Assembly: GCF_000429125.1 (NCBI RefSeq)
Contig: NZ_AUBG01000016.1
Span: forward strand, 1-64,000
DNA: 64,000 nucleotides
DNA from: Aequorivita capsosiphonis DSM 23843
Lineage (GTDB): Bacteria; Bacteroidota; Bacteroidia; Flavobacteriales; Flavobacteriaceae
Reading direction: 5' to 3'
The position numbers and the translations under genes are program-made. This document shows, one piece after another, positions 23,468 through 46,528 of the stretch (positions are counted from its first letter, which is position 1; the number at the start of each line of letters is the position of its first letter). The notes beneath the pieces are model-generated. The model was not told the origin of the DNA, did no database searches, and saw nothing but the letters and a program-made list of their open reading frames with translations.

Positions 23468-23789
23468 TTTTTAAATAGGACTTAGGACTAAAGGACTTAA
23501 GACATAAGACCTTTACGTTGCGGGAAAATTTAAACTGTTATAATACTTTTTAGTCATACATTATATGTCTTACTGTCTATCATCTAACTACATTTATAAC
23601 AGACTGATATTTAATAATCTACATATATAAGGATAAAGAGATGACTAAACGATTTTGTTTCTGCACTAATATTACAGCGCATTCTAAGCAGACTGAAAGT
23701 CTGTTGCATTAGTGAAATTCAAAGCGCCCTGATTGCGTCATCATTTTTCGAGGAAAGATTGAATTAGTGTATATTAGTGATCCCGATAG
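23468..23789. other. Non-coding left flank of the IS110 element
   Basis: About 320 bp with GGACTTA near-repeats at 23478-23510, a CAGACT / AGTCTG hairpin at 23689-23703 and no open frame. It ends in TCCCGATAG (23781-23789), one half of the palindrome that the element split. Confidence 0.6.
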
Positions 23790-23850
23790 ATTCTGTGTTA
23801 ACTAACAAGAGATTTTCTCTTTTTTTTATTATTTTTGTTATTCAAGACGG

Positions 23851-24912
23851 CTATAAGCTAGTCTGTAAAAGGATACTTTCTGCATTTGCATTTAGTGTCC
23901 TTTTTTGTTGATAATCATTCTCAAACTTAGTTTTATCCTTATCTATAACAAATATAAGTTCCAGCATTTTTCTCTGCACAGCTATCAGTGCTTTCATTTT
24001 AACCCCACTTTTGGCAACTATTCGGGTATATAGGTCTCTATGGAATTTATTATACTTTACGGATGACAGAGAAGGTAGGTGCATTGATTTTCTAAGATGC
24101 CTATTCCCTTTTTTTGATATCCGCGGTTTACCCTTTACAGATGTGCTCGATTGTTTTTCCCTAACATCCAGGCCCGCATAACCGGTCAATTGTTTTTTGT
24201 TTCTTATCAGCTCGAACCCATTGGTCTCAGCTAATACGATGACCGCGGTCAGCTCTCCCACGCCTGGTATGGAACAAATATTTTTTATTCTTTCCCTAAT
24301 ATCCGGATAATCCTTTAGCAATGTGGCTATATCCATCTTGATTTCTTTCTCCTGACCGTTGAGAAATTTGATTCTCTCAGCAATACGTTCAAGGCTTCTT
24401 TGGTTAGGCATAGCCTCCGCTTTTTCCGCGTGTAGCTGATTTTTGACCATAGATCTCTGATCAACTATTTGGTCACGCTCCCGGGTTAATTGCTTGAGCC
24501 GTCTATAAACTCCTTTTGGGCGATTCCAGTTATCTAGTCTACGTTCAAGACCGAATCTCATAATAGCTTGTGATGCTGTCTTATCAGTAATCGTGTTTAT
24601 GTCCAATGTCCTAAAAAAATTACTGATCTTATTGGGCAATACAATGCTCAGATCAAAACCACTTTCAGCAAGGCCATAGGCAAGTTTTTCATGATAGACT
24701 CCGGTCGCTTCCATGACATATCTAACGCTATCTGCATTGTTACTGTGGCCAGCAACCCAATCGATCAAAGATTTTATACCGTTGTCAGTGTTTTTAAACA
24801 CTTTGTACGATATGATTTCAATGTCCAAATCCTCATAGAGCCTTCCCAGAGATACAACTAATTCCTTTTGGGCTACATCAATACCCGCAACTTCCTTTAA
24901 AACTTTTTTCAT
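23851..24912 (-). CDS. IS110-family transposase (DEDD recombinase)
   Basis: A 353-residue transposase with an N-terminal RuvC-like DEDD domain (first acid D12 in AGIDVAQKELVV) and a C-terminal Transposase_20 domain (SIPGVGELTAVIVLAE, then LTGYAGLDVREKQS and ISKKGNRHLRKSMH). The serine-rich stretch SSTS after DVREKQ is where the nucleophilic serine is expected. A helical linker lies between the domains. The frame is intact and of full length, so the enzyme may be active. Confidence 0.95.
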   Translation of the reverse strand: MKKVLKEVAGIDVAQKELVVSLGRLYEDLDIEIISYKVFKNTDNGIKSLIDWVAGHSNNADSVRYVMEATGVYHEKLAYGLAESGFDLSIVLPNKISNFFRTLDINTITDKTASQAIMRFGLERRLDNWNRPKGVYRRLKQLTRERDQIVDQRSMVKNQLHAEKAEAMPNQRSLERIAERIKFLNGQEKEIKMDIATLLKDYPDIRERIKNICSIPGVGELTAVIVLAETNGFELIRNKKQLTGYAGLDVREKQSSTSVKGKPRISKKGNRHLRKSMHLPSLSSVKYNKFHRDLYTRIVAKSGVKMKALIAVQRKMLELIFVIDKDKTKFENDYQQKRTLNANAESILLQTSL

Positions 24913-24939
24913 GTGTTCGATTTTTAAAATTACAAATGA

Positions 24940-25129
24940 AAAATCTCTGTCCGTTTTTTCTCCTGGTTGGATATTCTGGATACCGTTGAGGTTCCTTACA
25001 TTCTGTTCAAACTCTACGAGATATAAAAGGATAAGGTCATATCTATCGGTCGGTATATCTTAAGATTACCTAGCCATCGGTTGACTCTTACCCTCTTTCA
25101 CTTATATTTGTAAAACTAAAAATTTATTT
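24940..25129 (-). ncRNA. Predicted IS110 bridge RNA (target- and donor-binding loops)
   Basis: A predicted RNA on the transposase strand in the left end. The target loop has an outer stem GGGTAAGAGTCA (25093-25082) / TGACCTTATCC (25039-25029), 11 bp with one bulged A. Inside are guide 1, CCGATGGCT (25080-25072), a small hairpin with a TTAA loop, and guide 2, CCGATAG (25049-25043). Guide 1 pairs across the left target and CT core with one G-T wobble; guide 2 pairs with the right target and core. Downstream, ACAGAAT (25006-25000) and AGGAG (24964-24960) match the two element ends and form a tentative donor loop. The 5' and 3' ends are estimates. Confidence 0.75.
25081..25110 (+). promoter_or_regulatory. 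Outward-facing promoter in the IS110 left end
   Basis: TTG (25081-25083), a 19-bp spacer, then TATATTTG (25103-25110) on the plus strand. This is a perfect Bacteroidota promoter pointing out of the element to the GNAT gene at 25261 and antisense to the start of the predicted bridge RNA. Confidence 0.65.
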
Positions 25130-25135
25130 CCAAAG

Positions 25136-25164
25136 CAAACATAGGAGCTATCGGGACGTGGCAA
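25136..25164 (-). promoter_or_regulatory. Junction promoter for bridge RNA and transposase
   Basis: The element starts with CTCC then TATGTTTG (25143-25136), a perfect -7 form. In this insertion a flanking TTG (25164-25162) lies 18 bp before it. In a circle, the right end would supply TTG 20 bp before it. Confidence 0.6.
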
Positions 25165-27642: not shown

Positions 27643-27713
27643 CAGCCACTTAATCCAACCTCTGGCGAAAACCGCGAATGTTGTTTTAACTCAAACCTTA
27701 TCAAATTAACAAA

Positions 27714-46399: not shown

Positions 46400-46528
46400 T
46401 TACATCATTAACTTCTCCCAATATCTATCAGCATCTTTTTCATTCAAGTACGAATAAAAGTCCCTAAGCAGATCCGAAGGACGTTTTCGATTTCTCCCGA
46501 TAGTTATCGGGATCAGTTTCGATTTCAG
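46400..46528 (-). pseudogene. Possible C-terminal gene remnant
   Basis: About 42 codons without an ATG, ending RPSDLLRDFYSYLNEKDADR...EKLMM. The sequence reads like a protein C-terminus, but the frame is cut upstream by a palindromic repeat (46495-46512) and by a stop. The family is not recognised. Confidence 0.3.
46495..46512. repeat. Intact TCCCGATA palindrome
   Basis: TCCCGATAGTTATCGGGA differs in one base from the site reconstructed for the IS110 insertion. The minus strand reads CT at the position of the IS110 core. Confidence 0.8.

Follow-up and report, generated by a model that had tools for sequence, protein, structure and literature searches.

Does the left end of the IS110-group element in Aequorivita capsosiphonis DSM 23843 encode a bridge RNA, and do the guides of this RNA read the site in which the element is inserted? 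The element is located in the window, the whole 64,000-nt stretch of DNA that was analysed, and is a single copy in the 4.04-Mb host genome. It consists of a left end of 235 nt (25147-24913), one transposase gene on the minus strand (24912-23851) and a right end of 61 nt. A long left end, a short right end and a CT core, present in all 54 elements found by a CT-holding end motif, are the end architecture of the IS110 group. Since the flanks are CCCGATAG on the left and ATCGGG on the right after a second copy of the CT core, the unoccupied site reads CCCGATAGCTATCGGG. The original prediction assigned a bridge RNA to this left end, and the fold, the conserved stems and the co-variation of guides with insertion sites were all found. 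The assignment is new for this copy; it is not new for the kind, as bridge RNAs were published in 2024. The features are compiled in Table 1.

Table 1. Features of the IS110-group element and its predicted bridge RNA, with positions in the window.
Feature	Position	Strand	Basis or remark
IS110-group element	23790..25147	-	1358 bp with one CT core counted; ends CTCCTATGTTTG and AACACAGAATCT common to relatives
Left target CCCGATAG	25148..25155	-	sequence; half of a palindrome with 23 intact genome copies
CT core, left end	25146..25147	-	CT in 54/54 elements; elements found by CT-holding end motif with at most 2 mismatches
TATGTTTG, predicted -7 box	25136..25143	-	left-end motif; fits Flavobacterium TAnnTTTG
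Predicted bridge RNA	24934..25131	-	model matches 24927-25107; start inferred from -7 box, end = closing helix
Closing helix P0, 5' strand AAGTGA	25098..25103	-	also in unsupervised consensus fold of 24 relatives
Target-binding-loop stem, 5' strand	25082..25097	-	helix 2; bulged A 25086 invariant in 61/61
Left target guide (LTG) CCGATGGCT	25072..25080	-	sequence and comparison with flanks
Hairpin between target guides	25052..25070	-	helix 3; double changes in 7/7 pairs
Right target guide (RTG) CCGATAG	25043..25049	-	sequence and comparison with flanks
Candidate handshake guide AT	25041..25042	-	first base A in 60/61; facing donor base T in 54/54
Target-binding-loop stem, 3' strand	25025..25039	-	compensatory pairing on 61 left ends
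Donor-binding-loop stem, 5' strands	25009..25022 (25022-25018 and 25012-25009)	-	helices 4 and 5
Left donor guide ACAGAAT	25000..25006	-	identical to right end just before core
Hairpin between donor guides	24978..24995	-	helix 6; bulged A 24981; double changes in 6/6 pairs
Right donor guide AGGAG	24960..24964	-	pairs CT core and CCT of left end
Donor-binding-loop stem, 3' strands	24943..24956 (24947-24943 and 24956-24953)	-	helices 4 and 5
Closing helix P0, 3' strand TCATTT	24934..24939	-	also in unsupervised consensus fold of 24 relatives
IS110 recombinase, 353 aa	23851..24912	-	PF01548 E = 2.7e-19, PF02371 E = 6.7e-20, both above cut-off
TTG, predicted -33 box	23806..23808	-	exactly 20 nt before TATGTTTG with ends joined in 45/53 elements
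Right target ATCGGG	23782..23787	-	sequence; follows second CT core copy 23788-23789

The locus was compared with that of congeners by means of the neighbouring acetyltransferase gene, which was detected at E <= 1e-30 in 6 of 27 congeners. In all 6, CCGATAG and CTATCGG were absent from the 420 bases before this gene, and no element was seen there by eye. What the congeners show is an unoccupied locus, not an empty target. The host genome also contains a second, distant IS110 recombinase (35% identity; G000:C10:4659-5564).

Relatives were fetched with the protein as query and the best 80 of 331 loci were taken; among these 80, only an Ignavibacteria bin (L029) carries a title outside the Bacteroidota. 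Within the family, 37 of 397 genomes, own included, had a protein match at E <= 1e-40. Left ends were taken only from loci with a plus-strand match, 94 of 109. The remaining 15 were not used for left ends; 14 of them provided proteins that were read for the active site only, and L097 gave none. Twelve loci had no left-end motif, L083 was skipped as a copy of L002, and L043, L085, L089 and L091 were left out. After merging identical left ends, 61 distinct sequences including the window formed alignment A1. Three loci with broken genes (L003, L041 and L065) contributed their ends alone, as they stand. The left ends of L044 and L076 contain a second, partial target-loop segment upstream of the transposase, as if a kin element had jumped into the left end of another. 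Right ends amounted to 54 distinct sequences, 53 of these with TATGTT[TA][GA]. The ends were found by motifs with at most two mismatches, so conservation of the end motifs, including TATGTTTG, is partly by choice; the TTG of the right end lies outside the search motifs. Guide tests were restricted to elements with sufficient flank, 59 for LTG and 50 for RTG. For the recombinase, 66 distinct proteins remained once those with an inner stop or fewer than 300 amino acids had been removed and duplicates collapsed.

On the transposase strand, the left end folds into the predicted target-binding loop, with every element of the fold present in the sequence. Its outer stem, proposed as 25093-25082 with 25039-25029, has indeed 11 pairs and one bulged A (25086) and can be drawn with 15 pairs (25097-25082 with 25039-25025). 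The two innermost of these 15 pairs are not conserved and are unpaired in 23 and 30 of the 61 left ends. The TTAA-loop hairpin expected between the target guides is present with 7 bp and a bulged A at 25056. The fold of the donor loop, described as less clear in the original prediction, is now resolved into a two-part stem, two guides and a hairpin between them. The bridge RNA is predicted to be shorter than the whole left end, with a start at about 25131 and the last pair of the closing helix at 24934.

Conservation of this structure is strong. Applied to the 61 left ends, the window-derived structure gave a standard pair in 94.3% of 2,601 cells, a figure somewhat favoured because the structure was drawn from one of the 61 sequences. 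Controls gave 44-50% with the partners slid by 1-3 columns and 83% after shuffling. Compensatory change had altered both sides in 38 of 43 pairs, with 358 double-change cells in comparison to a shuffled mean of 101. None of 500 shuffles matched any of the five structure measures. The fold of the window as a single sequence is not exceptional (z -2.2; 5 of 200 shuffles equally good).

As a check, a set of 24 relatives served to build two covariance models; the set leaves out the window and its close kin L002-L005, and also L022 and L041, whose guides are those of the window. R1 used the window-derived structure and R2 the RNAalifold consensus fold of the 24 alone; the stretch of each relative was cut using the alignment to the window. 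R1 detected the window RNA on the minus strand at 24927-25107 with 157.3 bits (E = 3e-33; next match E = 1.6) and, in a search of the whole genome, with E = 1.9e-31 (next match E = 1.9). R2 located the same positions with 153.8 bits (E = 3.7e-33; next match E = 0.11). The covariance check for conserved stems is thereby answered: a model made from relatives only finds the window RNA, and the 61 left ends show compensatory change. Two stem-loops with internal guide loops, maintained by compensatory change, are the structure found in bridge RNAs and in these left ends. Of 28 loci that the alignment did not include, most of them IS110 loci at a greater distance, 11 were matched by R1 at E <= 1 and 17 had no match at this threshold. 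Rfam gave no match on the left end at gathering score. Elsewhere in the window, at 27656-27683, an L19-Flavobacteria ribosomal protein leader (RF03130) is located.

The closing helix P0 was tested apart because RNAalifold did not draw it on all 61 left ends. RNAalifold did draw it on the 24 relatives (A2), and it is also part of the minimum-energy fold of the window. On the 61 left ends, 91.1% of the P0 cells are paired, versus 31-52% in slid and 88.3% in shuffled controls. Double-change cells number 11 versus 2.5 in shuffles, and two slid versions reach 12. The P0 value was reached by 4 of 500 shuffles on one measure and by none on the other four. P0 is the weakest helix of the alignment. In an alignment-free test, own ends scored 16.7 versus 13.6 for swapped ends, a value equalled in 0 of 20,000 cases; L063 and L075, in which both P0 strands are altered together, contribute to the own-end score. 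No 5' stem-loop was found ahead of the target loop in the window, where the 28-nt leader is unfolded. Across the 61 left ends, the leader that precedes P0 can shrink to 9 nt, counted from the predicted start, and in 22 of 61 it folds with -3 kcal/mol or less.

The target guides are the part of the RNA that can be compared with DNA outside the element. As predicted, the LTG CCGATGGCT pairs with its target CCGATAGCT with a single wobble (8 identities and one G·T), and CCGATAG fits the right target plus core at 7 of 7 positions. Among the 6,724 CT dinucleotides on both strands of the window, which do not include the real site as it is interrupted, 3 fit the LTG as well and 8 fit the RTG at 7 of 7 positions. 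For the relatives, the position of the guide was fixed by the alignment and compared with the flank beside the core in each element. On average, 4.89 of the 5 non-core bases of the RTG matched its own site and 2.07 matched swapped sites (n = 50); the own site was unbeaten in 47 of 50. The LTG had 4.36 of 7 matches with its own site and 2.51 with swapped sites (n = 59), and the own site was unbeaten in 25 of 59. For neither guide did any of 100,000 permutations equal the own-site value, so that the co-variation of guides and flanks proposed as a check is clearly present on both sides. In a position-free search, the best RTG match coincided exactly with the guide position in 41 of 50 elements. 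The best LTG match did so in 27 of 59 elements and fell within 2 nt of the guide position in 38. Of the two guides, the LTG fits its site less tightly. By eye, one extra base was seen between the core and the LTG match in L008, L010, L045 and L077, and two extra bases in L009. The RTG still fits in the first four; the right flank of L009 is unreadable. In some other elements the last core base of the LTG is not T. The closest relative, L002 (89% identical), has a right flank that fits the guide and a left flank, CAACGGACT, that does not, perhaps due to a rearranged or imprecise junction.

Could such matches arise by chance or as a by-product of the palindromic site? If CCGATAG is common in this genome, any copy near the element would look like a guide. 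Half-sites are indeed frequent as the palindrome is repeated, which is reflected in the 8 RTG fits mentioned above. This origin of the matches is barely conceivable: none of the CT sites in the window matches the two guides at once, the same co-variation recurs at the same place of the RNA in elements whose sites are very unlike, and the swap test contradicts chance. Target guides that co-vary with both target halves are a hallmark of bridge RNAs. In terms of sequence, the anatomy of the RNA, the co-variation of its stems and that of guides and sites are demonstrated.

Intact copies of the palindrome CCCGATAG|CT|ATCGGG number 23 in the host genome; the reversed control has 0. The palindrome is present in 84 of 299 family genomes, own included. 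Of 15 copies examined among the 23, 14 are located outside frames of at least 100 amino acids. Elements L003, L004, L022 and L023 are inserted in the same palindrome or one base pair off, and L041 in an imperfect one. All five have the core guides of the window, CCGATGG and CCGATAG. The host of L022, whose element has the same core guides and site as the window, carries 40 copies. REP palindromes are described as targets of IS621 (PMC11208160). The data agree only in part with the idea of guides directed at repeats of high copy number: besides the palindrome, the 14-base site of L066 has 9 copies, and for L012, also with a 14-base site, no intact copy was found in the 8.3-Mb host genome. A near copy of the palindrome, CCGATAACTATCGGGA, is located on the minus strand of the window at 46495-46510. 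In the literature searched, to which most subscription papers and bioRxiv do not belong, no report on the palindrome or on palindromic IS110 target sites in flavobacteria was found.

The two stretches originally proposed as donor guides, ACAGAAT and AGGAG, do match the element's own ends. Donor guides and ends are both nearly invariant. Where the donor continues with CT, the left donor guide continues with GT, and this G and T are invariant in 61 of 61 left ends. The core is not fully paired by the left donor guide because the core C meets an RNA G. The second candidate handshake base is a T, capable of pairing, in only 29 of 61. Four adenines of alignment A1 (A22, A52, A95 and A127) are invariant in 61 of 61. 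By their position they are taken for the putative counterparts of A43, A67, A116 and A150, which are described as flipped out in the IS621 bridge RNA (PMC11208158).

A conserved RNA directly upstream of the transposase gene, on the same strand and with its last helix ending 21 nt before the start codon, may also be a leader that controls the expression of this gene and not a guide. We regard this function as very unlikely, as the flank-matching stretches vary within a well conserved RNA and change with the flanks. The match of the donor guides to the element's own ends likewise speaks against a leader and for a bridge RNA.

Transcription of the bridge RNA may depend on the joining of the two ends. 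Bacteroidota promoters have a -33 box of the sequence TTG or TTTG. In the right ends, TTG stands out at positions -21 to -19, counted from the end of the core, with 1.87, 1.47 and 1.77 bits; the five preceding columns have 0.38-1.0 and the five following columns 0.31-1.39 bits. The -7 box of sigma-A promoters in Flavobacterium psychrophilum is reported as TAnnTTTG at -12 to -5 (PMC9723704). This spacing places the predicted RNA start near 25131. Junction promoters were already known in IS110 elements (PMC11208160, PMC11187229), and the predicted addition here is a phylum-specific form.

The recombinase has the domains of the IS110 group, the RuvC-like PF01548 and the Tnp domain PF02371, and matches IS621 with E = 1.2e-31. 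In the alignment to IS621, whose chain numbers are 2 ahead of the published numbering, E68 corresponds to E60, D110 to D102 and A113 to D105; S255 and S256 are also aligned. D12 lies before the start of this alignment and was placed by conservation. All 66 proteins retain D12, E68 and D110, and 65 of 66 retain the catalytic serine. The DEDD tetrad of the window enzyme is incomplete, with alanine (A113) at the fourth position. This is a property of a clade, defined as the 59 of the 66 distinct proteins, window included, with at least 53% identity to the window protein. The fourth Asp is absent in 58 of these 59 and replaced by Ala (27), Cys (26), Ser (3) or Met (2). It is present in L075, in all 7 distant proteins of the 66 and in 13 of 13 further distant proteins (20 of 20 distant). 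A lysine five residues before accompanies it: 8 of 8 proteins with Asp have this lysine, as do the further 13, and 0 of 58 without. L075 from Brumimicrobium aurantiacum is the sole clade member with the fourth Asp, and the lysine is found there too. The tree places L075 inside the clade, with the placement of the long distant rows unsure; its Asp may be a regain or a retention. A glutamate, E17, is present in 57 of 58 clade proteins, and as a guess it may be the substitute carboxylate. In the literature searched, again with most subscription papers and bioRxiv outside, nothing was found on IS110 with DEDD in Bacteroidetes.

Mutation of D105 is reported to abolish recombination by IS621 (PMC11208158). 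A clade that has lost this residue could be catalytically dead and be moved in trans by other IS110 enzymes. This is improbable in view of the genomes. In five genomes, elements with identical left ends occupy 2, 2, 3, 5 and at least 5 sites. The last count is that of the M. pedocola element: its 10 contig ends comprise five distinct flanks on the left and five on the right, and hence at least 5 sites. These copies are evidence for mobility of the clade, not for its biochemistry. Two of the five genomes, those that host L022 and L019, gave 3 and 6 IS110 homologues at E <= 1e-8, every one of them with 53-60% identity to the clade query; five fragments or copies from these hosts were read, and they have Cys at the fourth DEDD position. 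Conservation of the other three carboxylates and the serine also speaks against a dead clade.

The individual copy in the window is a different matter. Its S256 (codon 24145-24147) replaces the glycine found in 57 of 57 other clade proteins and in 65 of 66 overall. It is the only window-specific departure at clade columns conserved to at least 95%. Because the exchange is beside the catalytic serine, the copy may be immobile by its own enzyme. It might be a relic with an intact RNA and a disabled enzyme, mobile only in trans, and for this we see an even chance. The matching IS621 residue, G242, is described as contacted by D102 (PMC11208158), and the element is single-copy in its genome. Against this, S255 is present, the frame has full length, the remaining conserved columns are intact and Ser is a small residue; little can be concluded from the presence of only one copy, and an assembly error is possible. 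A relic is compatible with a left end that encodes a bridge RNA.

Taken together, the left end of the element very probably encodes a bridge RNA, and the following cycle as a whole is the best explanation of the data. We infer its transcription, binding and recombination steps from sequence. The element would excise as a circle. Joining of right end, CT and left end would put the TTG -33 box 20 nt before the TATGTTTG -7 box, and the resulting Bacteroidota-type junction promoter would start a transcript near 25131 that is about 190-200 nt long. This transcript would close on itself via P0 and hold two arms. In the donor arm, ACAGAAT and AGGAG would pair with the two ends of the element as joined in the circle. 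The target of the RNA-loaded RuvC-Tnp recombinase would be CCCGATAG|CT|ATCGGG, a palindrome whose scattered copies are mostly intergenic, and the circle would be recombined with it. As the site is palindromic and the same half-sequence is read by both guides, insertion in either orientation should be possible. With less confidence, we lean towards three particularities of the clade, nearly all of whose sampled members come from Bacteroidota: three DEDD carboxylates would suffice, D105 and the lysine having been exchanged together; the RNA ends would pair into a three-way junction; and a phylum-specific promoter would exist in the circle only.

Bridge recombinases are under development as programmable tools for DNA rearrangement. 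The clade offers many natural pairs of guide and site together with a differently built RNA, and it challenges the need for all four DEDD residues. A junction promoter would explain how such elements in Bacteroidota could be quiet when integrated and active as circles.

The element has much in common with the published accounts of IS621 from E. coli (PMC11208160, PMC11208158). In both, the RNA is encoded by the left end, with the target loop followed by the donor loop. Order and strand of LTG and RTG and of the left and right donor guides agree, with the LTG pairing to the bottom strand and the RTG to the top strand, both including the CT core. Further likenesses are the four conserved adenines, the candidate handshake base, the junction promoter, an rG:dT wobble in the LTG, a REP-like palindromic target and the RuvC and Tnp domains. 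The seekRNA of ISEc21 and other IS110/IS1111 elements is described in similar terms (PMC11187229): an RNA encoded, in the IS110 type, by the long non-coding stretch ahead of tnp matches both target strands, and a circle forms a promoter at its junction. The phylogeny of that study is described as limited to ISfinder proteins with the DEDD motif, so a clade without the fourth Asp would have been left out. Among solved structures, the ISCro4 recombinase (9t56) is the best match (E = 1.7e-33, residues 36-331), a likeness of the protein only. It has Asp at the third and fourth DEDD positions, and its first Asp is outside the alignment. By homology and mode of action the element belongs with IS110; by a strict DEDD definition it stands outside. 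The published IS621 RNA starts with a 5' stem-loop (PMC11208160), whereas a helix is predicted to join both ends of the RNA here. The predicted promoter is of the Bacteroidota type in contrast to the sigma-70 type described for IS621, the left donor guide leaves the core C unpaired, and the fourth Asp, D105 in IS621, is an alanine. As far as sequence can tell, the clade departs from IS621 in how the RNA is closed, in the type of promoter and in the active site.
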